DNA of 64,000 nt from Pleurotus djamor (Eukaryota; Basidiomycota; Agaricomycetes; Agaricales; Pleurotaceae), in NCBI GenBank assembly GCA_029747585.1, contig JAPEVF010000073.1, forward strand, positions 1 to 64,000, given 5' to 3'. The position numbers and the translations under genes are program-made. A model generated the notes under the pieces. The model worked only from the letters and a program-made list of their open reading frames with translations. It did not search any database and was not told the DNA's origin. Position 1 is the first letter of the stretch, and each line of letters opens with the position of its first letter. Below, piece by piece: positions 9,169-52,568 of this stretch.

Positions 9169-9597
9169 CTACGCAGGGCAAGCGGGTGTAGTAGGAGTGC
9201 TACCCCCAGCACTATCAGTTGGGGTCGCTGCACCATCTCCACCACCTGAAGGAGTACCTGCATCACCTCCCGATGCTCCGTCACCTCCAGTGCCCCCACT
9301 ACCACTGCCATCACCTCCAGCTGGTTGGCCTCCGCCCCCTCCGCTTCCGCCACTGGGCTTGAGATTGGCTATGGCTTTCTTAACTTCGGCTTTGATCAGC
9401 TTCTTGATAAATTTTCTGACTCTTCGCCTCCTTCCGTGCGTCATAGCCTCGAAATCTTGGCCAGCAATGTCAGTCTGCCAGGACTTCTCAATCAAGTCGT
9501 CGAGGTTGTCCAGCTTGGTCATATCACCAATCGCTGAAGCCGAAGGCCGTGCCACCACCAGTGTGGTCAGTGCAAGGAGTATGAACGCTGACCGCAT
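9169..9597 (-). CDS. WQDE-family secreted cationic protein 1, left copy
   Basis: Small secreted protein of unknown function, 142 residues, one coding exon. A signal peptide (about 1-16, ending VVARP) is followed by an acidic stretch with EKSWQTD (Trp40), the only member with T-D instead of D-E. Residues about 55-80 form a cationic block: GRRRR, then a helix beginning VRKFIKKLIKAEVKKA with hydrophobic residues every three to four positions. There are 12 Lys/Arg and a single Glu in this block. A long Gly/Ser/Asp/Thr/Pro tail follows. The GRRRR run could be a Kex2-type cleavage site. A TATA box lies upstream on the minus strand (9728-9734). Family membership is clear; an antimicrobial or membrane role is inference. 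Confidence 0.85.
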   Translation of the reverse strand: MRSAFILLALTTLVVARPSASAIGDMTKLDNLDDLIEKSWQTDIAGQDFEAMTHGRRRRVRKFIKKLIKAEVKKAIANLKPSGGSGGGGGQPAGGDGSGSGGTGGDGASGGDAGTPSGGGDGAATPTDSAGGSTPTTPACPA

Positions 9598-10128
9598 ACC
9601 TAGTTTCGGGGTCTAAAAGCTGATCTCTTGTGTTAGTATCTTGCGCAGCTGAGGTACAAGTCGGCCACCTACTCCACTAAGTGAGGGTACAAGAGACCTT
9701 GGAGAGTGATAACCATTTCTTGCTTGAATTTATAGTCGTGATGTTGGGAGCAATATTCGATTTACCCGCGCTTTCGCATCTAGAAGTGATCTAAGGTAGC
9801 TTCATGGCGCCACCTTCTTCAATCTACGATATGTAGTGTGAGTTATCATCCAGCGCATCAGTGGATTGAAGCGCCAAACAAGCTGCTTGATAACTGTGAA
9901 CCAACTACTTCACCGTGACTCGTTCACATCCTATGTCCATAATATCCCAACGAGACAGCAGTCATGCCCAGAACTTCCTCGATCACAGACATGGAGACGA
10001 GAAGCATGATCTCGAGACTAACTGTGAATCATCACGGGAAGGTGATCAAGCCCAACGCGATATCACATATTCAATTGACCTGGAACTGTTACACGCTTGT
10101 ACTCTACTATCCGGTCAGCTCTGACACT
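9598..10128. other. Promoter of WQDE protein 1 and 3' region of protein 2
   Basis: Holds the leader and TATA box (9728-9734, minus strand) of WQDE gene 1. The leader has an intron-like segment with an ACTAAC branch site and a CTTTTAG acceptor just before the start codon. The rest is non-coding. Confidence 0.6.
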
Positions 10129-10740
10129 TCACGCGCTAGCAGCAGGGGTGGGATCTGTGCTAGGTGAGTCGCTTGGCCCTCCAGCAGGATCACTGGCAGT
10201 AGGTGTAGGATCGTTAGGGTTGGTCGCCGTATCAGTAGGGGGAGGAGTGGGGTCAGTTCCAACGTCAGTTCCAGGGTTTCCATCGCCAGTAGAGGGCTGG
10301 CTGGTTGGGACTGGAACTGGGATCGGGATCGGAATTGGGAGGGGTACTGGAAATACCCCTCTCCCATTGGGACCGATCCCGCGAATGGCCCTCCTCACAG
10401 CCCTCCTAATTTCCCTCCTAACTACCTGTCGAATGATTCTTCGGACGTGGCGACGGATGGCGTGCCTAACAGCTCTTCGAACGTAGTGTCTGATACCGGC
10501 CCTGATCGCAGGACGCCGTCTGACGAGGATGATGAGCTCTTTGCTATTCATTTCATCTTGCCAGGCTTGTTCAATTTCGTCGTTGGCGTCCGCATTCAAG
10601 GAAAACCCAGATAACGCGTCAAGACTATCGGCGTTGTCGATGCTGTCTGTGACCGCGCCGAAATTATGGTCATCTTGAGTAGGGATGGCTACAACGAGAC
10701 CTAGAATGATGGCCAACAAGATGAGAACTGTAGAACGCAT
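10129..10740 (-). CDS. WQDE-family secreted Arg-rich protein 2, left copy
   Basis: Secreted protein of 203 residues, one coding exon. After the signal peptide (about 1-19, ending VVAIP) comes an acidic region rich in Asp, then EQAWQDE (Trp60). Residues about 74-123 form a remarkable helix with about 20 Arg in 50 residues and one Glu. Its pattern is Arg pairs alternating with Ala/Ile/Val pairs, for example HYVRRAVRHAIRRHVRR. Then comes a run of Pro alternating with Val/Ile/Leu (about 130-146), and a Pro/Thr/Asp/Ser tail. The helix is protamine-like in charge but amphipathic. Possible roles are membrane attack, nucleic-acid binding or a structural function; none is shown by the sequence. Confidence 0.85.
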   Translation of the reverse strand: MRSTVLILLAIILGLVVAIPTQDDHNFGAVTDSIDNADSLDALSGFSLNADANDEIEQAWQDEMNSKELIILVRRRPAIRAGIRHYVRRAVRHAIRRHVRRIIRQVVRREIRRAVRRAIRGIGPNGRGVFPVPLPIPIPIPVPVPTSQPSTGDGNPGTDVGTDPTPPPTDTATNPNDPTPTASDPAGGPSDSPSTDPTPAASA

Positions 10741-11865
10741 GATAACTCGCTCAGTGTCAGCGTTGTTGTAACTGTGTTAAGTGGTGACGTTGAGCATTTA
10801 AAATTCTTAGATCGAGTTGTCAAACTCACTTACCAAGGCCAACTCCAGCTGGAGCTCCTCTGAAGGTTGAGTTGCCCATTCAACTCACTTAAATACCTCT
10901 GAACATTGGGATATGTGTCCGGGAGCAGACGACCCATCCAGCAAAGTCGTTGGCCACAGAACCTAGCGGTGATTCCATCTTCGGAGGCGAAGAGATAGAG
11001 ATCAACTGTACCATATGTGGTGAAGGAGAGAAGGATGACCTTACTAAATTCTGCTTGAAGCAAGCTTACCATCGGCGTGTTTTGTTTAATTTTGCTCACC
11101 TTGATCAGTTTTGAGGCTAGAATACACGGACTGTATACGTGGCGAGCGATAGAANGGGGGGTCATATTGCTTTCCAGATTTTGAGCGATGGAGGGGAAGT
11201 TGGGTCGATTACATAAATAAGCAAACTCAGAACCAAGTTGGGTGTCATGAGTCGCGTTCAAGACATAGGATAGGGGCATCCTGACTTAGGAAGACATAAT
11301 TGCCACGATTGAACACTGCTATTTCTTTTCAACTTGCATGAAACACAATCATACTCGGTGTTGTATTATTCCTGTTCATTCGATGCCATACGTATGGGAC
11401 TACTCGCAAGTTAGTCGCAACTCGCACGAATGGCCTCGCTAACCAATTGATGACGGTATAAACACCGGAAGCCAATGAGGAAACAGGTAATTGTTTAGTA
11501 ATTCGTTCAAAGCCGTCGGCAGCGNTTTTGGTGTCAAGTAGCTGAAAGAAAGAAAGAGTGATGGAGCGAAATGAAGCCCAAACGCGTGCGGACGTGCTAG
11601 GGGGCGACAAAGCCTTCAGCTTCAGGAAGTAGTTGTAGGTAGTTGTAGCGGGAGGACTTGCAACTTCCCAGTTCAGAAGTTTATTTGAGCGCCGACATGG
11701 AAGCTCCGACCCAGGCAGCAATCATGTCATTTCCGCGGGGCCTGACCACAAGCCTCGCGGTCCTGGTCTCCGTGACTTATTCACGGACGATGCCACTGTG
11801 TTTCTAAACATGGCAGGGACGGTTTAGGTGATACAAAGTAGGACATTTACCCAAGGGAGTGCTAC
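10741..11865. other. Promoter region of WQDE protein 2 and site of lost P450
   Basis: Holds the leader and promoter of WQDE gene 2 and, at 11,411-11,449, the end of a P450 gene deleted from this arm. Minus-strand frames at 10,830-11,279 and 11,329-11,721 are interrupted by ambiguous bases (11,155 and 11,525) and are not kept in frame with the right arm. I do not call them genes. Confidence 0.55.
11411..11449 (-). pseudogene. Remnant: last codons of a P450 gene
   Basis: Reads QLVSEAIRASC plus one residue and a stop, matching the last codons of the P450 in the right arm (stop at 50,319). Everything upstream, about 2.4 kb, is missing. Sequence matching the P450's upstream flank (near 47,800-47,842) abuts directly. 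This fits a deletion in the left arm. An insertion in the right arm that borrowed a stop codon is less likely but possible. Confidence 0.55.
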
Positions 11866-12462
11866 TCATCTAGATGCATCTGGGACCGCACTGCTAGCTG
11901 CGTCTGTACTGTTATCTGGAGTAGAACCGGCATCGGCAGTACTTACATCGGCAGCCGGGGCCTCGGGGGCAGTTGCAGCGTCGCCATCTGAAGCAGCATC
12001 AGGCGACGAGGTTGCACCATCTGTTGACGCAGGAGAGTCTCCACCCGCATCGACATCAGGAGTAGCTGGTCCAGCTGGTGGTGGTGTCGGTGGGGGGGAG
12101 GGAGGAGGCGCGACCGTTCCACCCCCACCGGTTTGACCTAACTGCTTCTTGAGTCGCCTGAAAGCTTTCCTAACCGCCCTTCCAACTGCGACCCTCACGA
12201 CCTTCCTTATGTGCCTACGAAGCGCGAACCTATACCGAGGTCTCCTCAGGAAAATGAGGTCCTGGGTATTCATTTCATCCTGCCACGCTTTCTCAACTTC
12301 CGAGTGGATCGTTTCGGCCAAGAATGCACTGTCGATGCCGTCGCTGGTATGGACAACGCTAGCATCGTCTTGGAGCACTGAAGCATCAGAGCTTTGATGC
12401 AAGGGGCTCGCCATCACCGATCCCGTCACGAAGGCTAGAACAGCGATGAGGGAGAGACGCAT
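11866..12462 (-). CDS. WQDE-family secreted cationic protein 3, left copy
   Basis: Secreted protein of 198 residues, one coding exon. A signal peptide (about 1-19) is followed by an acidic stretch and EKAWQDEMNTQDLIF (Trp60). The cationic block (about 73-107) begins RRPRYRFALRRHIRKVVRV and has 16 Lys/Arg and no acid in about 35 residues. A Gly spacer leads to a Pro-rich run and an Ala/Asp/Ser/Pro tail. The block is identical in the right-arm copy while the tail differs by substitutions and indels. A TATA box sits on the minus strand at 12,621-12,628. The EMN(S/T)(K/Q) context after WQDE is shared with protein 2, so these two are the closest pair. Confidence 0.87.
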   Translation of the reverse strand: MRLSLIAVLAFVTGSVMASPLHQSSDASVLQDDASVVHTSDGIDSAFLAETIHSEVEKAWQDEMNTQDLIFLRRPRYRFALRRHIRKVVRVAVGRAVRKAFRRLKKQLGQTGGGGTVAPPPSPPPTPPPAGPATPDVDAGGDSPASTDGATSSPDAASDGDAATAPEAPAADVSTADAGSTPDNSTDAASSAVPDASR

Positions 12463-12959
12463 CTTGACTCTTTGGTAATGGGCTCAGAGTAAGTAGGCGC
12501 AAACAACCTTGGGACGGTTCAGTACGCGGCATGATGATGGTAGCGAATGCGAAAGGACGAACTCACCAAGGCCGAAACCAAGCCTTCACTGTGGAGGACC
12601 TAGAGTGAGGGGACGAGGGGTTTATATAGAGCACGCTTGAATTAGACGGTCGTTAGCCTGAGGGCCTGTTTCTTTAGCTAACGGGTCATTGGTATTCGGA
12701 GGCGACGACATGAAAAGACCACAGATTGCATGGAGCCAGCGCGCTCAATACTACTACTTTCGGATCCGAAGTCGCTTCATCGAGCTGGGTGACACTCAGC
12801 CGAAGGGAAGCTTGGGCGTATTTTGAATGCATAGTTGATGACCCAAACGCTGGACGTTTGTGGCCGTGATGAAGTAGTACTCCGCGTGAAGAGGTTCAAG
12901 AGCAGGTTTTCTTGGGTGTAGCCTTTCAAGTTAGGCAAAGCAAGCGAAAGAACGGGACG
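12463..12959. other. Promoter of WQDE protein 3
   Basis: Carries the TATA box at 12,621-12,628 (minus strand) and a leader with an intron-like segment whose acceptor lies just upstream of the start codon. Non-coding otherwise. Confidence 0.6.
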
Positions 12960-13205
12960 TATTGAGTTATTTGTAATGTGGGTGTCTTCGCGATTCTGCA
13001 ATCGAAGGTATGAATTCTGAGGATGGCTAGACGCGAGAGATTTGGGCGACAGTCTTACGAGAGTCTCCAATGAATTTTGACACTTGCGCCGTCCTCCCAA
13101 AAGTCTGAGGAACTGGAGTCGACAAGAACTCAAAGACGGCCCAAACTTATGAGCGTCCAAAGCCGCCCGCGTCGCATCGCGCCGCAAACGCTACAGTGCG
13201 ACGTC
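12960..13205 (-). pseudogene. Decayed 3' fragment of the F-box gene, left copy
   Basis: This stretch resembles the last exon of the adjacent F-box gene: a block equivalent to codons for ATWASLDAHL is recognisable as DATRAALDAHK, followed by a segment corresponding to the C-terminal MSEFMEDCLPH region. The frame is not kept. A matching relic lies in the right arm. The duplication therefore predates the split of the two arms. Confidence 0.55.
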
Positions 13206-13320
13206 GAGATAACTTTTGGGCGAACGATTCATAGTGACTGTTTGTAGCTTGAGTGGGTTTCTCTGGCAAACGCGTGAGATATTGTAGTTGGCTTGCGGAG
13301 GTAGTAGTAATACAAAGAGG

Positions 13321-14660
13321 TTATGGAGATTCTAAAGCCTTGATTTTGATGATATCAGAACGTGAGATATGTGGGAGACAGTCTTCCATGAATTCTGACA
13401 TTTGCAGGGACCTATCTTGCTTAGAATTTGGTAGGTTGCCCAAACGGTCGGAAAAATGAAAGTCAAAGAAGAGACTTTCGAGGCGTCCCGAACGTAAAAG
13501 CGTGTTTAAATGAGCGTCCAACGATGCCCATGTTGCATTGGGTCGTAGAGTCCGAAGTGCAATTTCAAAGTTGCATAGAATTTTAAACTTGAAAGAGACT
13601 GTCCGCAAGCCCAGCAAATTCTTCTGGCGGGCGGCGGAGAAGAGGGAGTCAATGGCGTCGAGGACACGATCGTGTATTTGCGCCATGGGGTCCAACTGCG
13701 CATTCAATGTCAAATGTTCGACATTGTTGTCATAGTCTCCGAAGGAGGGAAATTCATCGGATGAGCTTCGAGGGGCTGAGTTATGTTAGACTGAGTTCAT
13801 TTGAATGAGGATTAACGAACAAATCACTCACTATCGACGACCAGCTCAAGCGTCAACTTGGTTACTGAGAGCGGCATACGGGGGATGAGAGCCCACGCCG
13901 CAGCATCTAGTTCACGACTGCTTGAAAGGAAGATATGACACGAAAGCGCCTGAATGTTTGGAGTATGTAGCTTATACGCTTCAGGGTAAGAGGAACGCAG
14001 GGTGAGCGTTTGGAGGCCAGGCAGATTGATTGTTGGACGGGCCCCTTTGAAAACGGGCCTTTGGAATTGTGTTTGGATGGCTAGCTTCAGATGGCGTACA
14101 TACGTGCAGTGAGTCAGGATGTCGGCCACAGGTGTATAGTCGCCATCAACTAGTTTTCCAAGGGAAGTGAGGAAGAGCGATTCGAAGGTGGGGCGTGATA
14201 CTAGTGATTGGAGGGAATGAACGATGTTCGGCGTCCAGCAAGGGAAGTAAAGCATAATTTGTGCGCTTCGTGGTTGCTCGAGGTATCGAAGGAGATCGCA
14301 GAGCTTTTGCTCAACGTCAGAAGTCGTCCACCATTCTTCTTGTAGAACGACCATAAGACGTAAGTGACGAGTATACTGGCCAAGATGAGGGGAGGTAGTG
14401 CTGAGCAAACGGAGTAGTTTTCTGAAAGGTTGCGAAGTTACTCTTGGGTCAGTCAAGGAGATCTTCACATCGCAAAAGATGTAACGCTGTGCTAAAGGCA
14501 GCCACGATCGAGCCACCGTTGAACATACTCGGAGTGTGACTGTGTCCGTGGATAAGAAGCCCAAGATGTGGTCAATGACTTCTTCCGGAAGGAAAGGCAA
14601 ACATGGTGGCCTCCAGTCAGGATTTTGGGAGGGAGCGATGGCAGTAGTTCGCTCCGACAT
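13321..14660 (-). CDS. F-box protein, left copy
   Basis: F-box proteins are substrate adaptors of SCF ubiquitin ligases. Start 14,660 (MSERTTAIAP), intron 13,776-13,831, stop at 13,321; 427 residues with both exons in frame. The F-box lies at about residues 20-60 (LPEEVIDHILGFLSTDTVTL followed by RVCSTVARSWLPLAQRYIF). The rest is a leucine-rich, repeat-like region without a named domain, as in the many lineage-expanded F-box families of Agaricomycetes. A diverged third copy lies at 41,385 and a decayed fragment directly downstream. Substrate unknown. Confidence 0.85.
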
Positions 14661-15040
14661 ATGGCAAACACCAAGCAACTAGTTTGCCCAGGCACGACGT
14701 GACCGCGTGACGCGTGATGACTTCATGCATCAGGGGCGATAGGAGATGGCAGCTGAAGGCGACGAGCCCACTCCTTGACGGGCTTTTAACCTGGGTAGGA
14801 CGTGAAACTGTGGCGAACTATGTAGTACGAGTTATCAGTCTCCACGAACGCCCTTTTAGTATGAGTGAGGGCGTGGATGTCGATAAGAGGTCTACCCTTG
14901 CGAAGACAAAGAAGGCGCATTGGTGGACACTGGATTTTGAATACTTAACGGAGTTGATAGTATACATGCAACGGACAATGGTGACTTGTGGCAAATTCGA
15001 CCTTCACTTAGCAGCCGGGGTACAGTTTACTTTCTCTAAT
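14661..15040. other. Intergenic region between F-box gene and WQDE protein 4
   Basis: F-box promoter plus the 3' region of WQDE gene 4. Only partly alignable with the right arm. No gene seen. Confidence 0.55.
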
Positions 15041-15460
15041 CTAGGAAGCAGGGGCAGCGTCTCCGCCAGCGGCATCACCTCCAGCAGCAGCACCGTCACC
15101 ACCGGCAGCGCCATCAGCAGGTGCACTTCCGTCAGCAGGAGCAGCTCCTCCATCAGCTGGCGCACCACCATCAGCAGGAGCGTCGGGAGCACCTCCTCCT
15201 CCTTCCTTCTTCAAGGCCTTCTTGACGTACTTCTTGATGAGACGCTTGATATACTTCTTGAGTCTCCTACCCCGCCTGCCGTCTTCCATATCACCGGAGG
15301 CGATCTCGTCCTGCCATGCCTGCTCAACGAAGGTATCGATGTCTTGTGCCAAAGCTATTTCGGCGGTGCTATCGACGAGATCAAACGCGTTCGTGGCCGC
15401 CTCTAGGGGACGGGCAACTGCGAGGGCAGTAAGGGCAAGGAGGACAAAGGCTGGGCGCAT
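15041..15460 (-). CDS. WQDE-family secreted Lys-rich protein 4, left copy
   Basis: Secreted protein of 139 residues, one coding exon. A signal peptide (ending LAVARP) is followed by an acidic stretch and EQAWQDEIASGDMEDG (Trp49). The cationic block (about 61-86) is GRRGRR followed by LKKYIKRLIKKYVKKALKK: 14 Lys/Arg and one acidic residue in 26, with aliphatic or aromatic residues on one face of a helix. A Gly bridge then leads to a repetitive Ala/Pro/Asp/Gly tail with repeats of ADGGAPADG type. The block matches textbook cationic amphipathic peptides, and GRRGRR is a plausible Kex2-type site. A TATA box lies at 15,666-15,673 on the minus strand. Confidence 0.88.
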   Translation of the reverse strand: MRPAFVLLALTALAVARPLEAATNAFDLVDSTAEIALAQDIDTFVEQAWQDEIASGDMEDGRRGRRLKKYIKRLIKKYVKKALKKEGGGGAPDAPADGGAPADGGAAPADGSAPADGAAGGDGAAAGGDAAGGDAAPAS

Positions 15461-16587
15461 TGTAAGGATTGGAACCTAGGGAAATACAGCAAGAATCAGT
15501 TGTTGGGTCAATGGACGGCAGCGTGTAAAACACTGACGGGTGAAGCACGCTTTACGGTCTATGGAAGAGGAGCTGGTTAGACGTAGAAAGGTTTCAGATG
15601 AGTGTGGTAGTACTCACTAAAGGTGAAGAGCTGAACTGCTGAGGAAAATGGGTGTTGTGTCAAAGTTTATATATCGCGAGACATGGGGCGAGAGATAGAT
15701 AGAGCGGCGGTTGGTAATGGCATCTTGCCGTGAAACGACGCTATGGAGTGAACGGAGCAGTAGTACCAACGCGAGAAGACCTTTTGAACACAGAAATTCG
15801 CATCATAGGCGACACGATAAAACGCTAGATGCGACGGTCGTTACATAGCGGAGAACAGCCGCGCTATAACCACGCCCTTGTAGATCGGTGAGTTCACAGA
15901 CCGGAAACAAAGCTATCGCCACTCACTAAGCAAATGTAGTTTGCGTTATTCAACACACGAGAAGAAGGCGTGGGGAGCATCCCACGCACTGGTGCTTCAA
16001 GGGTAGCGCTGGATCATTGAATGAGAACCGTGTCATACGTCGGCGCGAAAGCCACCTACATAATGACAGGCAACACGCCAGGTCAGATAATTATGGATGT
16101 GATGGGAGAGACACTTACTTTGGATGGGTAGCTGATGAAGGTGAGGCGTGGATAGACATGGGATGGGGGAATATTTGGATCTTGCAATTGATGAGAGAGG
16201 CCGGTCAGTGGCCCAGAATTTTGGAAAGCGGTGACTATTTATTTACTCGATCTTGACTCTATCAAGAGAATTACTTGCCAGTCAGGGAACGGAGTGCTGT
16301 CGCGGCGGGGGGAGGGTAAAATTGGGCAGAAAGCAAGTTATTAAAATGTTATCTTGGGTATGCGCTGGTAGCGCGTTTGAGGTGGGAAGGTGAGAGACAC
16401 GATGAAGAATTACACCTGAGCGGTCGGTGATATATCTATGAACAGAGTCCGCGAAGCAAATACAAAATCCGATACATACAATATTCATACCAGTTGGATG
16501 GTAATCGGTGTCCCAAACAAGACTTTACCGTCTGACCGCCAGTTGGATGGCGGAATTTTCGGCGTGTACTAGCAGAATGTGTCGGTA
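15461..16587. other. Promoter of WQDE protein 4 and inner edge of left arm
   Basis: TATA box at 15,666-15,673 (minus strand) and a leader with an intron. Similarity with the right arm continues to about 16,100 and then stops. The remainder to the cystathionine gamma-synthase stop has no gene I can support. Confidence 0.6.
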
Positions 16588-39361: not shown

Positions 39362-39948
<587 letters not shown>

Positions 39949-40282: not shown

Positions 40283-40898
40283 ATGGCACCCAAACCTGCT
40301 TCCACTGCTGGCAAAGCACCTGCCTCCACCGCCTCTAAAGCGCCTGCGAAATCAGCTGAGGGCTCAAAGGCTGCGAAGAAAACCGCGAAAGCCGCTGCCC
40401 CAGCTGATGGGGAGAAGAAGAAGCGACGAAAGATCCGCAAGGAGACGTACTCTTCTTACATCTACAAAGGTATGCTCGGACTTGGGACGCATCGTACTTG
40501 GAGGTCACTTTCTTATCTTTTGTGCGCGTTCTCTAGTTTTGAAGCAAGTTCACCCCGACACGGGTATCTCGAACAAGGCTATGGCCATCCTCAACAGCTT
40601 CGTCAACGATATCTTCGAGCGCATTGCCACCGAAGCTTCTAGTACGTCGCGTCGTCATTCACCTCCAACTAATCAACTCATTGCGTTGCAGAACTTGCTG
40701 CGTACTCGAAGAAGTCTACGATTTCATCTCGAGAAATCCAGACCTCTGTCCGACTCATCCTTCCTGGAGAATTGGCCAAACACGCCATCTCCGAGGGAAC
40801 GAAGTCCGTTACTAAGGTCAGTAGTTATACTTTCGAAGGGGGCCATCGTAAGCTTACGTCTTTCCTCCTCTCAGTTCTCATCAGCGGGAGCCAAGTAA
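40283..40898 (+). CDS. Histone H2B
   Basis: Core nucleosome histone. Start 40,283 ([20 protein letters not shown]), Lys/Ala-rich tail, then [92 protein letters not shown] and TKFSSAGAK, stop 40,898. Three short introns at positions common in basidiomycete H2B genes. The C-terminal TK(F/Y) Lys context is the conserved monoubiquitination site. Confidence 0.96.
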
Positions 40899-41384: not shown

Positions 41385-42889
41385 ATGTCGTGTCGTGTCG
41401 AAGTCAAGGAGGACGATGATGTAACAGGATATGGCGGTCTTTGGCCGATCGGATTGGGACCTCCTTTCTGTAATGCGTGCCCAGTTGAAGCGCTGGCACT
41501 GCAATTTCCCTTTATCTGTCATCCCCTTACTCACAAAGCGTTACATATGCCATCTCTACCAGAAGAGGTCGTCGACTACATTCTAGGGTTCCTGTCTACA
41601 CGCATGAATGCGTTGAGGAGGTGCTCCTTGGTGGCCCGTTCATGGACACCTTTGACTCAGCGTCGCATCTTCCATCAAGTCAACCTTTCGACTCCGATGA
41701 CCCCTACGAAGAAACAGCAATACGGAAATCTCATCGGATTGCTCAGGACGACGTCCTCTCATATTTCGTGCTACATACGCTCCGTGCGTATCCTGATCCC
41801 AGATCACATGGAACGTCAACCAAGCTCTAAAGTTGTTGACGCTCTCAAAGAACTTTGTCTGCTCATCCCTCTCATTGAGCGACCGCAAAGCGTACATATT
41901 GTCCTTCGTCGAATTCCTCGTGCCTACTCGCCCGACTTCGATGCTTGTCTCCAAGCTTTACTTTCTCGATCTACGTTGGAGTCAGTTTCCTTTGCGACTA
42001 ATGGTTGGGCGCCGGCAGCAGCACTGTTGCACCATTGCCCTAACATACGACACCTTAGCCTAACCATCGATGTGCCATTACCGACGGAGCTCGAAGCCGA
42101 GTCACGCTCACTCGAAATCCATCTAGAACACGTAGAGACACTCAAAGTATACCCTGGGTACATCCCTCTGCGAATTACATTCATCCTTCCGAACCTACAC
42201 AAGTTCTCTCGCCCTATTTCATTGAGAAGTTCACCTCCATCACCAGGTTCTTGTTTGACCCTACTCCCTCCGACAATACCATCTTCGGTTGCACATCTAG
42301 AACTGAAATTTGGCATAGGTGGTGAGGAGTCTCGCTTTTGTCAGAAACGCAAGTCAGGGTTACTTACAACGTTTGCTTCCCCTTTACATAATAGCTCCAG
42401 CCCCTTCTCCTCTCTCACCGCCTCACCTCCCCGTTTTTGGAGACTATGCTGATATGCAGCGTCTTACTATCATTCTGGACATGGATCCTAACCTTCAACG
42501 ACGTCAAGACGTTGCTCTTCGCGCCTTAAATACGTTTTTCTCTGACACTCCTTCGAAAAACCTCCTTAAGTTGGAGGAGATAGTTATACGATTCCCTGAC
42601 CCACGGGAATGTGGCGCTACAAACACTGTGGTACAAACCGACATGGGCCGTGTTGGACACCTGTCTAATGGTCATCGTTCGCCTGGGGCACCTCAGAAGC
42701 ATCCTCCTCGATTTCCAATTCCCAATGGGTATGAATGTTTTCGATTTGATGTACCCTCAGGAGAATTTGAGGCGAGGATTGCAATTCATGCAAGAGCGTC
42801 TCCCAGAGACTTATAGGACAGGGCTGCTCACGGTGAAGATCGCCTCACCTCGACGAGAGTGGTTCATGCGCCGCCCGTATCTGAGGTAG
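41385..42889 (+). pseudogene. Third F-box gene copy, with frameshift
   Basis: Diverged paralog of the F-box genes in both arms. Exon 1 holds the F-box (MPSLPEEVVDYILGFLSTRM then NALRRCSLVARSWTPLTQRR) and a Leu-rich body. After an intron, exon 2 reads VFGDYADMQRLTIILDMDPN and LRALNTFFSDTPSKNLLKLE, parallel to the arm copies. Near 42,595-42,615 the frame matching the arm copies changes: the upstream frame ends with IVIRFPDPRE, while TWAVLDTCLMVIVRLGHLRS and the C-terminus are in another frame, ending at 42,889. Spacing differs by two bases from the intact copies. It is either a real disabling indel or a sequencing error. Confidence 0.65.
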
Positions 42890-43894
42890 AATCTCCCGTC
42901 AAAGGCAATATAGAGTCCTGACGCTCACTGTCCGTCCTTTGGCATCAATTCTGTACCATCAGTGTAACCTGTGAAATTTACCGTGCGGGTGCAGTTCGAT
43001 TTCTAGTCATGTCCTTTGCGTGGACCTCCCGTGCCATAGGAAATGATCTCTCGAATTTCTGGAACCTGCCAGCCCGTCTTTTTCGTGCAGCAGACCCATA
43101 TCATTCGTATCCAGCTTTGTCTCCACACTTGTTTTGTTGTAGGTCCAAGTTTCGCCTCCATCTTATTGCCCCCCCCCCCCGGTGCACTTGCTCTCTATCG
43201 CAGCCTAACCGGCAAGAGCTACGCATTCTCATGGCAAGTGTTAGTTGCAATAATTCGCCGTCCTCTAAATTTATCTCACCTGGCGTGTCTCCTGTCATTT
43301 TAGGTGATTGTCGCGCCGACGTTTGTCACTGTTCTCATCCAGTGATTCAGCGCTCAGCCTTGAAGCCTAGTGCGTGGGATGTTCCCCACGCCGTCTTCTC
43401 GTGTGTTGAATGACGCAAACTACATTTGCTTAGTGAGTGGCGATAGCTTTTTTTTCCGGTCTGTGAACTCACCGATTTACAAGGGCGTGGTTAAAGCGCG
43501 GCTGTTCTCCGCTATGTAACGACCGTCGCATCTAGCGTTTTATCGTGTCGCCTATGATGCGAATTTCTGTGTTCAAAAGGTCTTCTCGCGCTGGTACTAC
43601 TACTCCGTTCACTCCATAGCGTCGTTTCACGGCAAGATTCAACTACCAGTCGCCGTTCCATCCATCTCTTGCGTTATGTTCCACAATATATAAACTCTGA
43701 CAGAGTACCCATTTTCCTCAGCAGTTCAGCTCTTCACCTTTAGTGAGTACTCAGACTATTTCTGACCTTTCTCGATCTAACCAGCTCCATCCATAACCCG
43801 TAAAGCGTGCTTCACCCGTCAGTACTTTACACGCTGCCGTCCATTGACCCATCAACTAACTCTTACTGCATTTTCCTAGGTCCCGATCCTTACA
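42890..43894. other. Inner edge of right arm and promoter of WQDE protein 4
   Basis: Similarity to the left arm starts near 43,270. A run of Cs lies near 43,170. The WQDE-4 promoter has a TATA box at 43,687-43,694 and a leader intron at 43,743-43,879 with an AACTAAC branch site. No other gene seen. Confidence 0.65.
43687..43694 (+). promoter_or_regulatory. TATA box of WQDE gene 4, right copy
   Basis: TATATAAA, about 200 bases upstream of the start codon; most of that distance is the 137-nt leader intron. Confidence 0.7.
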
Positions 43895-44308
43895 ATGCGC
43901 CCAGCCTTTATCCTGCTTGCCCTTACTGCCCTCGCAGTTGCCCGTCCCCTTGAAGCCGCCACCAACTCGTTTGATCTTGTCGATAGCACCGCCGAAATAG
44001 CTTTGGCACAAGACATCGACACCTTCGTTGAGCAGGCATGGCAAGACGAGATCGCCTCCGGTGATATGGAAGACGGCAGGCGGGGTAGGAGACTCAAGAA
44101 GTATATCAAGCGTCTCATCAAGAAGTACGTCAAGAAGGCCCTGAAGAAGGAAGGAGGAGGAGGAGGAGCTCCCGATGCTCCTGCTGATGGCGGCGCGCCG
44201 GCTGATGGAGGAGCTGCTCCTGCTGACGGAAGTGCACCTGCTGATGGTGGTGACGGTGCTGCTGCTGGAGGTGATGCCGCTGGTGGAGACGCTGCCCCTG
44301 CTTCCTAG
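43895..44308 (+). CDS. WQDE-family secreted Lys-rich protein 4, right copy
   Basis: 137 residues; counterpart of the left-arm gene ending at 15,041. Signal peptide, acidic stretch and EQAWQDEIASGDMEDG are kept, and the cationic block (61-86) is identical to the left copy. Differences fall in the signal/pro region (Ile for Val, Ser for Ala) and in the Gly bridge and Ala/Pro/Asp repeats, where codon-sized indels change the length. The leader intron is 43,743-43,879, and the start codon follows 15 bases after its acceptor. Unchanged helix with changing tail suggests the helix is the selected part. Confidence 0.88.
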   Translation: MRPAFILLALTALAVARPLEAATNSFDLVDSTAEIALAQDIDTFVEQAWQDEIASGDMEDGRRGRRLKKYIKRLIKKYVKKALKKEGGGGGAPDAPADGGAPADGGAAPADGSAPADGGDGAAAGGDAAGGDAAPAS

Positions 44309-44610
44309 ATTAGAGCAAGCAACTTGTACTACAATGACTAAATGCAGGTTGAGTTGTCGCATCACCACGGTACATTGCATATCCGCCGTGCCTGCCTTGC
44401 TTTCGGACAAAGTCGCGAAGTAGACCTCTTATTGGCATCCATATACTCAAGGAGCGTCTATTAGTATGGCTAAGTTGTACTACTTTGCTCTAACATCGTA
44501 CCCTCCCCTGCACAACTGAGCTCTTCGCCGTCGACTTCAGCCATCCCCCTATCGCCCCTAAGGATGAAGCCGCCACCGTGCCTGGGCAAACTGGTCGGTT
44601 CTTGTTTCCC
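44309..44610. other. Intergenic region
   Basis: About 300 bases between WQDE gene 4 and the F-box gene. No gene seen. Confidence 0.55.
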
Positions 44611-45950
44611 ATGCCGGAGCGAACCACTGCCATCGCTCCCTCCCAAAATTCTGACTGGAATCCACCATGTCTACCTTTCCTTCCGGAAGAAGTCATTGAC
44701 CATATCTTGGGGTTCCTATCCACGGACACAGTCACACTCCGAGCATGTTCGACGGTGGCTCGATCATGGCTACCTTTGGCACAGCGTTACATCTTTTGCG
44801 ATGTGAAGATCTCATTGACTGACCCAAGAGTAACCTCGCAACCTTTCAGAAAACTACTCCGTCTGCTCAGCACTACCTCCCCTCATCTTGGCCAATATAC
44901 TCGTCACTTACGTCTTATGGTCGTTCTACAAGGGGAATGGTGGACGACTTCTGACGTTGAGCAAAAGCTCTGCGATCTCCTTCGATACCTCGAGCAACCA
45001 CGAAGCGCACAAATTATGCTTTACTCCCCTTGCTGGACGCCGAACATCGTTCATTCCCTCCAATCACTAATATCACGCCCCACCTTCGAATCTCTCTTCC
45101 TCACTTCCCTTGGAAAACTAGTAGATGGGGACTATGCACCTGTGGTCAACATCCTGACTCACTGCACGTATGTACGGCATCTGAAGCTAGCCATCCAAAC
45201 ACGATTCCAAAGGCCCGCTTCCAAAGCGGCCTGTCCAACAATCAATCTACATGGCCTCCAAACGCTCACCCTGTGTTCCTCTTACCCTGAAACGTATAGG
45301 CTACATACTCCAAACATTCAGGCGCTTTCGTTTCACGTCTGCCTTTCAAGCTGTCGTGAACTCGATACTGCGGCATTGTCTCTCATTCCCCGTATACCGC
45401 TCTCAGTAACCAAGTTGACGCTCGAGTTGGTCGTCGATAGTCAGTGATTTGTTCGTTAATCCTCATTCACATGAACTCAGTCTAGCATAACGCAGCTCCT
45501 CAACGCTCATCCGATGAATTTCCCTCCTTCGGAGACTATGATAACAATGTCGAACATTTGACATTAATTGCGCAGTTGGATCTCATGGCGCGAATACACG
45601 ATCGTGTCCTGGACGCCATTGACTCTCTCTTCTCCGCCGCCCGCCAGAAGAATTTACTGGGCTTGCGGACAATCTCTTTCAAGTTTTACGTTCCATGCAA
45701 CTTTGAAATTGCACTTCGGACTCTACAACCCAATGCAACATGGGCATCGTTGGACGCTCATTTAAACACGCTTTTGCGTTCGGGACGCCTCGAAAGTCTC
45801 CTCTTTGACTTGCAATTTTCCGACCGTTTGGGCAACCTACCAAATTCTAGGCAGGACAGGTCCCTGCAAATGTCCGAATTCATGGAAGACTGTCTCCCAC
45901 ATGTCTCACGTTCTGGTATCATCAAAATCAAGGCTTTAGAATCTTCATAA
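44611..45950 (+). CDS. F-box protein, right copy
   Basis: Intact counterpart of the left-arm gene, also 427 residues: exon 1 44,611-45,439, intron 45,440-45,495, exon 2 45,496-45,950. Exon lengths (829 and 455 nt) equal those of the left copy. The F-box is LPEEVIDHILGFLSTDTVTL then RACSTVARSWLPLAQRYIF. Start chosen at MPERTTAIAP, equivalent to MSERTTAIAP on the left. Despite about 6% nucleotide divergence the frame is fully kept, which argues that both copies were under selection or parted recently. Confidence 0.87.
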
Positions 45951-46059
45951 CCTCTTTGTATTACTACTACCTCAGCAGGCCAACTACGATTTTTCACGCG
46001 TTCGCCAGAGAAACTCACTGAAGCTACAGACAGTCACTATGAATTATTCGCCCAAAAGT

Positions 46060-46290
46060 TATCTCGACGTTGCACTGTAGCGTTCGCGGCGCGATGCGAC
46101 GCGGGCGGCTTTGGACGCTCATAAGTTTGGGCCGTCTTCGAGGTCTTGTCGACTTTGGTTCCTCAGACTTTGGGGAGGACGGCGCAAGTGTCAAAATTCA
46201 TGGGAGACTGTCGCAAGCCCGTCGCCCAAATCTCTCGCGTCCAGCCACCCTCAGAATCCATATCTTCGATTGCGGAATCGTGAAGACGCC
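46060..46290 (+). pseudogene. Decayed 3' fragment of the F-box gene, right copy
   Basis: Counterpart of 12,960-13,205. The block DARG... to LDAHKFGPSSRSC matches the ATWASLDAHL region of the F-box last exon. It is out of frame and has indels. Confidence 0.5.
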
Positions 46291-46646
46291 CACATTACAA
46301 ACAACTCGATATGTTCCGTTCTTTCGCTTGCTTTTCCTAACTTGAAAGGCTACACCCAAGATAACCTGCTCTTGAACCTCTCCACACGGAGCACTACTTC
46401 ATCACGGCCACCATGACGCGTCCAGCGTTTCGGTAATCAACTATGAATTTAAAATCCCGCCAAGTTTCCCTTCGGCTGAGTGACTCTCAGCTTGATGAGG
46501 CAACTTCGGGTCCGAAAGTGGCAGTCTTGAGCTTGCTGGCTCCATGCAATCTGTGGTCTTTTCATGTCGTCGCCTCCGAATACCAATGACCCGTTAGCTA
46601 AAGAAACAGACCCTCAGGCTAACGACCGTCTAATTTAAGCGTGCTC

Positions 46647-46654
46647 TATATAAA
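46647..46654 (+). promoter_or_regulatory. TATA box of WQDE gene 3, right copy
   Basis: TATATAAA; the same sequence context is kept in the left arm (12,621-12,628, minus strand). Confidence 0.7.
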
Positions 46655-46812
46655 CCCCTCGTCCCCTCACTCTAGGTCCTCCACAGTGAAGGCTTGGTTC
46701 CAGCCTTGGTGAGTTCGTCCTTTCGCATTCGCTGCCATCGTCATGCCGCGTACTGAACCGTCCGAAGGTTGTTTGCGCCTACTTAGTCTGAGCCCATTAC
46801 CAAAGAGTCAAG

Positions 46813-47418
46813 ATGCGTTTCTCCCTCATCGCTGTTCTAGCCTTCGTGACGAGATCGGTAACGGCGAGCCCCTTGCATCAAAGCTCCGATGCTTCAGCGC
46901 TCCAAGACGATGCTAGCTTTGTCCATACCAGCGACGGCATCGATGGTGAATTCTTGGCCGAAACGATCCACTCTGAAGTTGAGAAAGCGTGGCAGGATGA
47001 AATGAATACCCAGGACCTCATTTTCCTGAGGAGACCTCGGTATAGGTTCGCGCTCCGCAGGCACATAAGAAAGGTGGTGAGGGTGGCAGTTGGAAGGGCT
47101 GTCAGGAAAGCTTTCAGGCGACTCAAGAAGCAATTAGGTCAAGCTGATGGGGGTGGAACGGTCGCGCCTCCTCCCTCTCCCCCACCACCAACACCACCAA
47201 CTGAACCAGCTACTCCTGATGCTGGTGCGGGTGGAGACCCCCCTGCGTCAGCAGATGGTGCAACCCCGTCGCCTGATGCTGCTTCAGATAGTGATGCTGC
47301 AACTGTCCCCGATGCCCCGGCTGCCGATTCAAGCACTCCTTCTGATGCCGGTGCTCCTCCAGATAACAGTACCGACGCAGTAGCGTCTAGTGACGCGGCC
47401 CCAGATGTGTCCAGATGA
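46813..47418 (+). CDS. WQDE-family secreted cationic protein 3, right copy
   Basis: 201 residues; counterpart of 11,866-12,462. EKAWQDEMNTQDLIF and the cationic block are identical to the left copy. The pro-region has a few changes (for example Glu for Ala near position 46), and the tail differs by several substitutions and small in-frame indels in the Pro/Ala/Asp/Ser repeats. Leader intron 46,709-46,786; the start codon follows 26 bases later. It lies upstream of the P450 gene on the same strand. Confidence 0.87.
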   Translation: MRFSLIAVLAFVTRSVTASPLHQSSDASALQDDASFVHTSDGIDGEFLAETIHSEVEKAWQDEMNTQDLIFLRRPRYRFALRRHIRKVVRVAVGRAVRKAFRRLKKQLGQADGGGTVAPPPSPPPPTPPTEPATPDAGAGGDPPASADGATPSPDAASDSDAATVPDAPAADSSTPSDAGAPPDNSTDAVASSDAAPDVSR

Positions 47419-48129
47419 ATAACGCTATCTTTGGTGAATGACATACTGTGTATCAAAATTGTCCTTGTCCTATTCCGAAACCCCCGGCGCAATGACTTCG
47501 TCCCTGGCGACCCAAGAGATTATATATGCTTGAAGTCGCTGGCTAGCTCAGGCTCCGCGGACATTGCTCGGGGGCGGTCGAGACTGGGTCGGAGCTTTCG
47601 CCACCCGAGCTCCCGAGCCGGCGCTCAAATAAGCTTTCAAACTGGGAAGTGGTAAACCCTCCATCCTCAATGCTACAACCACATCATGACGGCGTTGTCG
47701 CCATCTCCCGACTTCATTTCGCTTACTTTCCAGAGTCCAGACACTTGACGTCAATACGCCGTCTGCAGACCTGAGCGAATGACCAAACAATTACCTGTTT
47801 CCTCATTGGCTCAACATTGGCTTCTGGTGTTTATACGTGCCCAGGCTTCGCGACTTCTCGGAATTGGTCACACTTTCTGTCCAGAGAATTGACAGCAGTA
47901 ATTCGCTGACAGGCTTGGGAGAATCGTCAGTCCATTGACACACTCGGATACTGGAACTTCGTGAGAAGGCTTTCCGTTTTGTCGCGCAATGTACTCGGCC
48001 TCGGTACTGTTGACCACGCGATGACAATGACTTCGCTCCGTATCAATGGTACCTGAGAACTGCCTATTTATCGATTATCATTTATAAGACGAGGCAATCT
48101 TCAGGCCCCATCTTCCGCTACTCATAGCA
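47419..48129. other. Intergenic region and P450 promoter
   Basis: Similarity to the left arm runs to about 47,842 (GGTGTTTATAC) and then ends; 47,842-48,129 exists only here and is probably the P450 promoter. No gene seen. Confidence 0.6.
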
Positions 48130-50319
48130 ATGAGCTTCAATATCCCGATTCAACTGGTTCTTGGAGGCTGGTTTGTCTTCGCCGTCTCCCACCTGGTAGC
48201 TCGCGCTAGGAAGCGATCACTTCTCCCTCCTGGTCCGCCGAGTGACCCAATCATTGGTAACCTTCGCTCGATGCCCACGGAAAATATTCACATCCAGTTT
48301 CACGAGTGGGCGAAGAAATATGGTTAGTCACACATACCTATCCATATACAGAGTTCTTTAATGCTGGTTAGGTGATGTGATGCACCTCACTCTCCCTGGA
48401 CAGCACTTGGTCGTTCTGGATAGCGACAAATCTGCCCTCGATTTGCTCGAGAAACGGAGCTCACTATATAGTGATCGGCCGCCTATCGTTGTGTACCCCT
48501 TGTAAGAATTTCGCTCCGCCGTCAAATCAAACACTAAGCACCGCACATACACTAGAATGGGATGGGAAAAGATTCTCGCCTTCATGCGTTATGGCGATGA
48601 ATGGCGCTACCATCGAAAGCTCATCCATTCGCACCTCACAGTAACCGCAAGTCGAGCTTACCAACCGATACAACTCAAAAATGCCTACATCCTTGCTAAA
48701 GATCTACTTAAGAACGACGGTAACTTCAACCAACTTTTGGGACGGTTAGTTCTTGTCAACCATTGCTCAGGTCGCAACTGCCTCAGACTTCTAAACCACA
48801 CTTTCCAGGTTTTCGACTGCGATTATCATTGAAGTTGCTTATGGCCACCAAGTGCAGACAGAAAATGACAAGTACTTACAGCTAGCTTCTGAAGCTGGGG
48901 ATGCTCTTTCTGCCGGGGGTCCGCCCGGGGGATCAGCCGTTGACCTTCTCCCAATACGTGAGTCGCAGCCTGATACCTCGTGCCCATCACCCAAAGTAGC
49001 ATCCTTTTCTCCCAGTGCAATATTTCCCGTCTTGGTTTCCTGGAACGCACTACGCCAATGTAGCTCGTCATTTCAAGGGCACGGTTGATCAATTATTTCA
49101 AATCCCTTTCCAGGAGACCTTGGAGGCGATTGTGAGCGAGTCTAGTTACATGAACCTTTACTCACTGATAACCATTATCAAAGAAAGCGGGTAATGCTAC
49201 GGAATCATTTCTTTCTCGGTGCATTGCCGAACTGGGCGAGTTACTACTAAGTGACTCCGATAAAGATGCACTACGAGGAGCGGCTGCACAACTCTATGCT
49301 GCTGGAGCTGAAACGGTGCGTTTCCACTCTGCCCTTCTACATTTCAAAGGCATGACTGTCTTGCATGCTTTTAGACTTGGTCGACCCTTGCAACCTTCAT
49401 GCTAGCTATGATCTTGCATCCAGAATGTCAGCGGCTCGGGCAAGAAGAGGTGGACCGCGTAGTAGGGAGGGACCGTCTCCCTTCATTTCAAGATCTCAAG
49501 TCCCTCCCGTATATCAACGCCATCGTTGAAGAGACTCTTCGGTCTGTCCTTGAAAATATGTATTGGCCATGCTTAGGCTGACACTCATCTCTTCATTTGA
49601 CCTGGGGGTCCGAAGGTGGCACCCCGCTGTTCCGCTCGGTACTATCCATATTCTTTCTACTTGCACGGGCAACTGATCCCTTTCGATAAAGGCGTTCCTC
49701 ACCGCGTGACACACGATGACACCTATCGTGGAATGTTTATACCTAAAGGAGCTACAATTTTTGCAAACACAATGTTCGTTCAATCCTCGTTTCGAACTGT
49801 TTCCCCACGCGTCTCTGATCAGATCTATGCTTTTGAAGGGGAATGTCACGCGATGCCAATGTATACGAAAGTCCCGAAGTGTTCAATCCTACGCGGTTTC
49901 TCCCCAGGTCTCAAGGCGGTAACGACGAGCCTGGCTTTAGCGCAGCCTTTGGTTACGGAAGAAGGTGAGAGGCGGTCATGAAGCATTCTCAGATTAAAAA
50001 GTAATCGTATCAATAACTTTCCCCTTCCCTAGGATTTGCCCTGGTCGCCATCTTGCCAACTCAAGTCTATTCATTGCTGTTGCCACCATCTTATCCACTC
50101 TGAATCTCTCAAAGGTCAAGGGTCCGAACGGCAACGAAATAACACCGGAAGTGGAGTACGTCACCGGAATAACCAGGTATGGCCGTTCCATTGATAAAGA
50201 TGATATGCTTACAATAGCCTTTGGTCAGCCATCCGAAAGCGTTTGTGTGTGATATTTCCCCCAGACGCGCCAACACACATCAATTGGTTAGCGAGGCCAT
50301 TCGTGCGAGTTGCGAGTAG
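48130..50319 (+). CDS. Cytochrome P450 monooxygenase (CYP64-like), right arm only
   Basis: Heme-thiolate oxygenase anchored in the ER membrane. Start 48,130: hydrophobic anchor, then the Pro-rich hinge LLPPGPPSDPIIGNLRSMP. Later exons give YSDRPPIVVYPL, MGWEKILAFMRYGDEWRYHR, the I-helix AQLYAAGAET, the ExxR motif (IVEETLR), WHPAVPL, GVPHRVTHDDTYRGMFIPKG and the heme loop FGYGRRICPGRH with its Cys ligand. The last exon (SHPKAFVCDISPRRANTHQL) ends at 50,319. About nine short introns; all exons can be joined in frame. It resembles the CYP64/O-methylsterigmatocystin oxidoreductase-like group common in Agaricomycetes. Substrate unknown. Only its last codons remain in the left arm. Confidence 0.88.
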
Positions 50320-50978
50320 TCCCATACGTATGGCATCGAATGAACAGGAATAATACAACACCGAGTATGATTGTGTTTCATTCAAATTGAAAAGAAGTAG
50401 CAATCGCGGTCTTCTGTCTTTACTTCCCAAGTCAGGATGCCCCTATCCTATGTCCTGAACGTGATGACACCCAACTTGGTTCTGAGTTTGTTTATTTATG
50501 TTTTCGACCCAACTTCCCCTCCATCGTTCAAAATCTGGAAAGGGAGCAATATGACCCCCTCTATCGCTCGCCACGTATACAGTCCGTGTATTCTAGCCTC
50601 AAAACTAATCAAGGTGAGCAAAATTAAACAAAACACTCCGATGGTAAGCTTGCTTCAAGCAGAATTTAGTAAGGTCATCCTTCTCACCTTCACCACATAT
50701 GGTACAGTTGATCTCTATCCCTTCGCCTCCGAAGATGGAATCACCGCTAGGTTCTGTGGTCAACGACTTTGCTGGATGGATCGTCTGCTCCCGGACACAT
50801 ACCCCAATGTTCAGAGATATTTAAGTGAGTTGAACGAGTACCTCAACCTTCAGAGGAGCTCCAACAAGTTGAATTGGTCTTGGTAAGCGAGTTTTCCGAC
50901 CTAATTTAAGGATTTCTGAGGCTCATCATCACTTCACACAGTTACAACAACGCTGACACCGAGCGAGTTATCGTTATC
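50320..50978. other. Promoter and leader of WQDE protein 2
   Basis: Leader intron 50,883-50,941 and a weak TATA-like ATATTTAA at 50,817-50,824. A plus-strand frame at 50,437-50,886 is partly kept in the left arm, but frame changes in its first part and its overlap with the promoter and leader argue against a gene. Confidence 0.55.
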
Positions 50979-51584
50979 ATGCGTGCTGCACTTCTCATCT
51001 TGTTGGCCATATTCCTGGGTCTCGTCGTAGCCATTCCGGCTCAAGATGACCATAATTTTGGCGCGGTCACAGACAGTATCGACAACACCGATAGTCTTGA
51101 CGCGTTATCTGGGTTTTCCTTGAATGCGGACGCTAACGACGAAATTGAACACGCCTGGCAAGATGAAATGAATAGCAAAGAGCTTGTCATCCTTGTCAGA
51201 CGACGTCCTGCGATCAGGGCTGGTATCAGACACTACGTTCGAAGAGCTGTTAGGCAAGCCATCCGTCGCCACGTCCGAAGGATCGTCCGCCAGGTAGTTA
51301 GGAGGGAAATTAGGAGGGCTGTGAGGAGGGTTATCCGCGGGATCGGTCCCAATGGGAGAGGGGTATTTCCAGTCCCCCTCCCAGTTCCAGTCCCGGTACC
51401 AGTTCCAGTCCCGACCAGCCAGCCCTCTACTGGGGATGAAAACCCCGGAACTGACGTTGGAACCGACCCTACTCCTCCTCCTACTGATACGGCGAACAAC
51501 CCTAACGATCCTGCACCGACTGATCCTGCTGGAGGGTCAAGTGATGCGCCTAGCATAGATCCCACCCCTGCAACTAGCGCGTGA
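50979..51584 (+). CDS. WQDE-family secreted Arg-rich protein 2, right copy
   Basis: 201 residues; counterpart of 10,129-10,740. The motif is EHAWQDEMNSKELVILV. Within the 50-residue Arg-rich helix only three residues differ (Gln for His, Val for Ile, Val for Ala), and all Arg positions are kept. The Pro-alternating run is nearly pure Val here (PVPVPVPVPVP), while the left copy has Ile and Val. The tail has a small deletion. One coding exon; start codon 37 bases after the leader intron. Confidence 0.86.
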   Translation: MRAALLILLAIFLGLVVAIPAQDDHNFGAVTDSIDNTDSLDALSGFSLNADANDEIEHAWQDEMNSKELVILVRRRPAIRAGIRHYVRRAVRQAIRRHVRRIVRQVVRREIRRAVRRVIRGIGPNGRGVFPVPLPVPVPVPVPVPTSQPSTGDENPGTDVGTDPTPPPTDTANNPNDPAPTDPAGGSSDAPSIDPTPATSA

Positions 51585-52142
51585 AGTGACTGTGCTGGCC
51601 GGTTAGTACAACGAGTGTGCATGTAGGTAGAAGGTAGTCAGATAATTCCAGATGAATTGAATGTGACGTCGTGTGGGACTTGATTACCTTCCCATGATGA
51701 TTCACGGTTAGTCCCCGAGATCATGCTTCTCGTCCTCATTTCTGTGATCGAGGAAGTTCTCAACATGTCTGCTGTCTCATATTGATGGGTATAGGATGTG
51801 AACGACGGTGAGTTACGGTGAAGTACTTTGTTACATCCACCGATCAACTTGTTTGGCGCGTTGACCCATCGATTCGCTGGACGGTAACTCACACTATATG
51901 TTGTAGATTGAAGAAGGTGGCGCCATGAGACTACGTTAGATTACTTCCCGCTTCTTCTAGATGCGAAAGCGCGGGTAAATCGAATATTGTTCCCAACATG
52001 GGAACTATAAATTCAAGCAAGGAATGAGTATCATTCTCCAAGGTCTTTTGCACCCTCACATAGTGGAGTAGGTGGCCGACTTTTACCTCATCTACGCAAG
52101 ATACTAACATGAGAGACCAGCTTTTAGATCTCGAGACTAGCT
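51585..52142. other. 3' region of WQDE protein 2 and promoter of protein 1
   Basis: TATA box at 52,006-52,012 and leader intron 52,068-52,127 with an ATACTAAC branch site, just upstream of the start codon. No other gene. Confidence 0.6.
52006..52012 (+). promoter_or_regulatory. TATA box of WQDE gene 1, right copy
   Basis: TATAAAT, kept in the left arm at 9,728-9,734 (minus strand). Confidence 0.65.
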
Positions 52143-52568
52143 ATGCGGTTGGCGTTCATACTCCTTGCACTGACCACACTTGTGGTGGCACGGCCTTCGG
52201 TACCAGCGATTGATGATATGACCAAGATGGATAACCTCGACGACTTGATTGAGAAGTCCTGGCAGACTGACATTGCTGGCCAAGATTTCGAGGCTATGAC
52301 GCACGGAAGGAGGCGAAGAGTCAGAAAATTTATTAAGAAGCTGATCAAAGCCGAAGTTAAGAAAGCCATAGCCAATCTCAAGCCCAGTGGCGGAAGCGGA
52401 GGGGGCGGAAGCCAACCAGCTGGAGGTGACAGTGGTAATGGGGGCACTGGAGGCGACGGAGCTTCAGGAGGTGATGCAGGTACTCCTTCAGGTGGTGGAG
52501 ATGGTGCGGCGACCCCAAGTGATAGTGCTGGAGGTAGTAGTCCTACTACACCTTCTTGCTCTGCGTAG
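52143..52568 (+). CDS. WQDE-family secreted cationic protein 1, right copy
   Basis: 141 residues; counterpart of 9,169-9,597. EKSWQTDIAGQDFEAM and the following GRRRR plus Lys-rich helix are identical to the left copy. Changes lie in the pro-region (Val-Pro for Ala-Ser, Asp for Gly, Met for Leu) and the Gly/Ser/Asp tail. One coding exon, leader intron 52,068-52,127. It is the outermost family member and neighbours mL59. Confidence 0.85.
   Translation: MRLAFILLALTTLVVARPSVPAIDDMTKMDNLDDLIEKSWQTDIAGQDFEAMTHGRRRRVRKFIKKLIKAEVKKAIANLKPSGGSGGGGSQPAGGDSGNGGTGGDGASGGDAGTPSGGGDGAATPSDSAGGSSPTTPSCSA

Follow-up and report, generated by a model that had tools for sequence, protein, structure and literature searches.

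The window analysed here, bases 1–64000 of contig C1118 (122,911 bases) in the 55.9 Mb assembly of the mushroom Pleurotus djamor, encodes a family of small, secreted-looking proteins that share a WQDE-type motif followed by a strongly basic helix. The initial annotation had placed nine open reading frames (ORFs) at the coordinates below; all nine begin with ATG and run without interruption. They represent five paralogs, A to E, four of which occur in both arms of an inverted repeat and one in the spacer between the arms.

9169–9597, minus strand: paralog A, left arm; 142 residues; motif EKSWQTD; basic helix encoded at 9358–9432
10129–10740, minus strand: paralog B, left arm; 203 residues; motif EQAWQDE; basic helix of four-residue repeats encoded at 10372–10524
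11866–12462, minus strand: paralog C, left arm; 198 residues; motif EKAWQDE; basic helix encoded at 12127–12249
15041–15460, minus strand: paralog D, left arm; 139 residues; motif EQAWQDE encoded at 15305–15325; basic helix encoded at 15203–15280
36054–36581, minus strand: paralog E, in the spacer; 175 residues; motif EQAWQDD; basic helix encoded at 36270–36395
43895–44308, plus strand: paralog D, right arm; 137 residues; basic helix encoded at 44075–44152
46813–47418, plus strand: paralog C, right arm; 201 residues; basic helix encoded at 47026–47148
50979–51584, plus strand: paralog B, right arm; 201 residues; motif EHAWQDE; basic helix encoded at 51195–51347
52143–52568, plus strand: paralog A, right arm; 141 residues; basic helix encoded at 52308–52382

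The common order of parts noted at first (signal peptide, acidic stretch, motif, basic helix, low-complexity tail) is present in 9/9 proteins, the signal peptide being putative. The motif E-x-[AS]-W-Q-[DT]-[DE] was likewise found in all nine ORFs, with its tryptophan at residue 40–60 in the five representatives measured. For the analyses below, six representatives were used: A, B, C, D, E and F, the last being a sixth paralog outside the window. Read by eye, the putative signal peptide of the representatives is a hydrophobic N terminus in which position −3 is occupied by A, V or T and position −1 by A, and the residues ahead of the apparent cut agree with the −3/−1 rule for signal peptides. 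All nine proteins, at 137–203 residues, are below the limit for small secreted proteins (<300 residues). When an 18-residue profile of the module was used in a leave-one-out scan, the motif was the top site in 6/6 representatives and was equalled by 0 of 3,000 shuffles. At B in the left arm, the NCBI model ONZ45_g4132 has 56 more residues ahead of the likely signal peptide; read by eye, these point to a spliced intron immediately preceding the ATG of B.

The window forms a large inverted repeat, which accounts for the pairing of eight of the nine copies. Its arms are:

1–16090, no strand assigned: left arm of the inverted repeat, carrying A, B, C and D
43271–61924, no strand assigned: right arm of the inverted repeat, carrying D, C, B and A in mirror order

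The arms match in four blocks at 90–95% identity. The same spacer is present on a second contig, C805 (37 kb), at 92–96% identity, with E inside and a D copy at both ends; D is therefore found on both sides of the spacer in two contigs, C1118 and C805. Beyond D the contigs disagree: the flanks of C805 match the F-box region of the window at only 75–86% identity, and the two ends of C805 match one another at 89–98%. Outer arm bases 5200–9160 occur at two places in the assembly, both on C1118, and genome searches found A, B and C on C1118 only (A and C through relatives, not as queries). A, B and C are thus present only twice although the spacer has two haplotypes, when a true duplication should give four copies. 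Within 61700–64000, only 61700–61924 is repeated elsewhere, at the start of the contig, where the left arm ends; over its first 181 bases the contig does not differ from the right arm. We consider it likely that the A, B and C pairs are the two haplotypes of the dikaryon, joined head to head through the D repeat, rather than duplicates; they may alternatively represent a true inverted duplication. A haploid genome would then probably carry about six of these genes here (A, B, C and E, plus D on both sides of the spacer). The five paralogs and nine intact ORFs of the initial annotation stand, but nine is probably not a count of separate genes. More generally, copy counts in dikaryon assemblies can be inflated by haplotypes joined in this way.

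Comparison of the arm copies gave omega values of 0.04 (D), 0.20 (B), 0.27 (A) and 0.41 (C), with synonymous exceeding non-synonymous change in all four pairs; the arm pairs evolve as coding genes, under selection. Pooled over the A, B, C and D pairs, the helix has 5 non-synonymous differences in 318 sites versus 18 synonymous in 105, the acidic part including the motif 13 in 453 versus 19 in 114, and the tail 40 in 592 versus 41 in 233. The helix is, on these small counts, the most constrained part of the protein. Together, these results establish the cationic-helix proteins as a real, constrained gene family. They also bear on the idea that the proteins are polyelectrolytes of the wall or matrix, whose charged helix and tail would adhere harmlessly to glucan, acidic polysaccharide or lignin. 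The tails are rich in Gly, Pro, Ser, Thr or Ala, the six representatives contain at most one cysteine and the tail of C is free to vary, all of which such a role would accommodate, but the helix is conserved beyond what mere charge needs and no known wall-binding domain appears at the Pfam cut-off, which makes this role improbable. Antisense ORFs over D were also considered as a coding frame and ruled out, since the sense-frame omega of 0.04 makes them unlikely to be coding.

With helix limits set by eye, the helix carries a charge of +9 to +19 in 14 sequences, the acidic stretch −5 to −12 and the tail −3 to −13; the net charge of the mature protein as a whole is −9 to +1. The acidic stretch and the tail balance the basic helix and leave the intact protein either nearly neutral or acidic. 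In the basic helix, hydrophobicity recurs about every four residues, most clearly in the longer helices, whose period is 4.0 and not 3.6 residues. The hydrophobic moment of the helix at 90 degrees exceeded that of shuffled sequences in 6/6 representatives (p from 0/5000 to 0.017), whereas the whole-helix moment at 100 degrees reached p<0.05 only in D (0.005) and ranged from 0.22 to 0.80 in A, B, C, E and F (B 0.80, C 0.69, E 0.67), although short helices separate the two angles poorly. For the best 18-residue stretch, judged against re-maximised shuffles, D (0.0025) and F (0.0255) were significant, C was borderline (0.05) and A, B and E were not significant (0.06–0.07). The four-residue pattern in B runs through a 51-residue stretch with no 100-degree signal left; on a normal alpha helix, its hydrophobic stripe would circle the rod more than once. 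For B and C, which have no moment at 100 degrees, we rejected a helix that is amphipathic on a single face along its whole length. The strongly basic amphipathic helix first proposed is thus confirmed as basic, but classical 100-degree amphipathicity over the whole helix is confined to D.

The search for relatives suggested by the initial annotation yielded further paralogs and a sister branch in this genome, but none outside P. djamor among the matches listed. A genome query with D produced 27 matches, of which 22 had E ≤ 0.003. F, with the same anatomy as the nine window copies, lies on C53 and C824 as an allele-like pair; a shorter seventh paralog lies on C645 and C939. The sister branch consists of acidic, secreted-looking proteins on C696, C550, C334, C1143 and C1363. 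The link between the branches is modest: D copies match the C696 members at E-values of 1.8e-5 to 0.0025, much of it signal peptide. A profile of the sister N-terminal module hits the motif in A, D, E and F (0/3000 shuffles each); the hit in C is weak (p 0.049) and that in B lacks significance (p 0.14). B joins the family via C (E-value 1.9e-15), and C via F (E-value 2.2e-4). Near the sister C terminus a second module copy scores above all 5,000 shuffles in 6/7 proteins and is equalled by 1/5000 in the seventh; scored with a profile of the cationic branch only, this second module gave p values of 0 to 0.038. On these profile comparisons, the WQDE motif is one form of a module that occurs once in the cationic branch and twice in the sister branch, around a weakly charged helical centre.

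Several sequences related to the sister branch or resembling the family were also noted. At L030:3148–4026, a sister protein of 293 residues looks like a tandem of two family units in which the module recurs. On C334 a sister gene is present as two inverted copies that lie about 1.4 kb from each other (L031:2683–3162 and C334:62567–63028), with more copies on C1143 and C1363. At C640:28670–28996 (L034), a lysine-rich, secreted-looking ORF has a similar signal peptide and no clear motif, its match having an E-value of only 6.4.

The initial annotation interpreted the layout as that of stored antimicrobial-peptide precursors, in which a protease would cut between the acidic part and the helix, at dibasic residues, and the free helix would permeabilise bacterial or fungal membranes. 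The succession of acidic stretch and basic helix agrees with this, as do the constraint on the helix between arm copies, the significant 100-degree moment of D and the arginine pairs (RR) near the helix start in 5/6 representatives; in addition, sub-threshold matches to frog antimicrobial families were obtained for two sister proteins (dermaseptin, E-value 0.0034; ocellatin, 0.27). The dibasic sites are, however, poorly placed for release. Lysine–arginine (KR) is found in 1/6 representatives (D), in mid-helix; RR always falls within the stretch counted as helix; and E has neither, only lysine pairs (KK), so that KR, RR and most KK pairs lie inside one helix. Dikaritin-type KEX2 precursors are described as being cut at KR, RR or KK (PMC9769878), and such cutting would divide the cationic helix itself. 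Moreover, an acidic tail of 49–89 residues follows the helix in 14/14 sequences, the helix not being C-terminal, and B, C and E lack a moment at 100 degrees. The motif need not mark antimicrobial precursors, because the sister branch, with its weakly charged helix, has it as well. Judged from these site patterns, Kex2-type release of the helix is poorly supported, as is the proposed dibasic release of a stored peptide.

Comparison with described precursors points the same way. The order of signal peptide, acidic piece and helical peptide is that of dermaseptin-type frog precursors, but in the phylloseptins, as described, KR ends the acidic piece and the peptide sits at the C terminus (PMC3742671); here no KR ends the acidic piece, the helix is followed by the tail and its period is near 4. 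Ece1, the candidalysin precursor of Candida albicans, is likewise a fungal secreted protein with an amphipathic helix (secretion being predicted for the present family), but its description gives seven regularly spaced KR sites as the processing signal (PMC6687503), whereas KR is absent from 5/6 representatives. With the KEX2-processed repeat proteins of Agaricomycetes, as these are described, the family shares a signal peptide (putative here) and basic pairs, but not repeated peptide cores between cleavage sites. We therefore regard a stored precursor as rather unlikely. To judge from their layout, the proteins might act as antimicrobial peptides do even without the defining features of those precursors, and an antimicrobial role is one of several plausible ones.

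Database searches agreed with the initial impression that the WQDE motif is not known from any named fungal family. The family proteins had no Pfam match at cut-off, the lowest E-value below it (0.00025, to a sister protein) being put down to chance; nothing better than 0.013 was found in NCBIfam, or than 0.062 among PDB sequences. The latter match, of D to a botulinum neurotoxin construct, is not significant and was also put down to chance. No named family with the motif was met in the open-licence literature, in which no search was aimed at the motif itself. In protein-database searches, alignment A2 gave two hits among the matches listed, both from this genome, and sister alignment A3 gave six, all from P. 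djamor. Residues 1–88 of D drew 67 candidates, none at E ≤ 10; D and A themselves were not returned either, so unannotated genes are missed by this search. As coverage of other mushroom proteomes by the protein database was not established, we make no claim that the family is confined to P. djamor. Among bacterial and archaeal genomes, 87 pattern matches were obtained, of which 0 were confirmed as relatives.

The nearest functional lead, by description only, is the Ssp1–6 family of Pleurotus ostreatus, which is also a multi-copy family of small proteins from the same genus, secreted in P. ostreatus and predicted to be secreted here. Of its six ssp genes, ssp1–3 are described as encoding proteins of about 18 kDa, detected as ~15-kDa bands and strongly induced by hydroxymethylfurfural (HMF), and ssp4–6 as not responding to HMF; altered ssp1 expression changes ligninolytic enzymes (PMC5674062). 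Homologs of Ssp have been reported from 22 species of fungi, and contact with rival fungi raised Ssp1 more than any other gene (PMC7105643). A cationic helix and a low-complexity tail are not mentioned for Ssp in these descriptions.

This likeness raises the possibility that the proteins are Ssp1-like regulators, secreted between hyphae, that would time secondary metabolism, lignin-degrading enzymes and fruiting. The six single-unit sister proteins have precursors of 16.9–21.5 kDa, roughly agreeing with ssp1–3, and the six-member ssp family, with its effect on ligninolytic enzymes, offers a precedent. Within 400 nt upstream, TATA[AT]A is present in 10/12 genes (A, C, D, E and S1–S6, but not B or F), a count that leaves out the right-arm copies and compares with a chance estimate of about 18% per gene; this fits inducible promoters. 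The sister-branch protein search, however, gave only P. djamor among the matches listed, the cationic branch stands apart as a highly charged offshoot, and the reported rise of Ssp1 with rival fungi fits antagonism as well as signalling. A regulatory role of this kind is rather unlikely.

The reading we favour, tentatively, is that these genes are the cationic branch of a Pleurotus small-secreted-protein family and encode a secreted polyampholyte whose basic helix is restrained by the acidic helix and tail of the same protein and binds anionic surfaces. The signal peptide, as read from the sequence, would take the protein into the secretory pathway. The mature protein is predicted, with moderate to low confidence, to form two helices, one acidic, with the EQAWQDE module, and one basic, in which the four-residue unit is repeated, followed by a disordered acidic tail. 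The acidic helix and the tail offset the positive charge of the basic helix. Outside the cell, the basic helix could then bind anionic surfaces, either membranes of bacteria and rival fungi or acidic wall and plant polymers, and contact with the target might displace the acidic partner and unmask the helix, with no need for Kex2 excision. Secretion, shielding and the target of the helix are steps that we infer. In favour of this reading are the anatomy common to the nine copies and F, the low non-synonymous change in the helix, the charge balance, the 90-degree moment in all six representatives and the residues ahead of the apparent cut. The AlphaFold2 model of D has helices at residues 32–54 and 61–86 (ten-residue means of the predicted local distance difference test (pLDDT), 51–72) and an unstructured tail; a sister-protein model was unusable (mean pLDDT 38.6).

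Several observations weigh against a shielded polyampholyte. The D model is poor overall (mean pLDDT 50.1, predicted template modelling score 0.26), which makes the packing of the two helices conjectural. Across the six paralogs, the correlation of helix charge with flank charge is suggestive but falls short of significance (r −0.79, p 0.06), and the period in A and E is not significant with any angle allowed (p 0.16 and 0.45). The tail of D is as unchanged between the arms as its helix (0 non-synonymous differences each), and the two E alleles, with 2 synonymous and 4 non-synonymous differences (omega 0.67), show no synonymous excess; these differences are too few to be informative. Finally, the sister centre is weakly charged (0 to +10) despite the common module, and charge shielding therefore cannot be the general job of the module.

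Among the neighbouring genes, a GH7 cellulase-like exon lies at 57789–58418 on the minus strand in the right arm (Pfam PF00840, E-value 3e-71), with its mirror at about 3.4–4.0 kb in the left arm; the right-arm gene is a weak hint of an extracellular, substrate-facing setting. F-box-like genes just below the Pfam cut-off lie at 13827–14660, beside D, and at 41385–42449, in the spacer. A divergent pair at 39550–40642 reads, by eye, as histones H2A and H2B.

A narrower form of the polyampholyte reading, which we put forward as speculative and on balance unlikely, is a gene-encoded, self-neutralised cationic helix: an [x-hydrophobic-basic-basic] repeat, its stripe winding round the helix, next to an acidic counter-helix, would be harmless in the secretory pathway and surface-active at an anionic target without proteolysis. 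If true, this would be a new class of gene-encoded, self-neutralised cationic helices, in a mushroom. Many fungal small secreted proteins are described as orphans without a testable idea of how they act (PMC7105643). The present family, from an edible mushroom that is grown commonly enough to be called cultivated, offers such an idea: its basic helix is constrained and has an acidic partner within the same protein. Its sister branch, with the same module around a weakly charged centre, provides a natural comparison.

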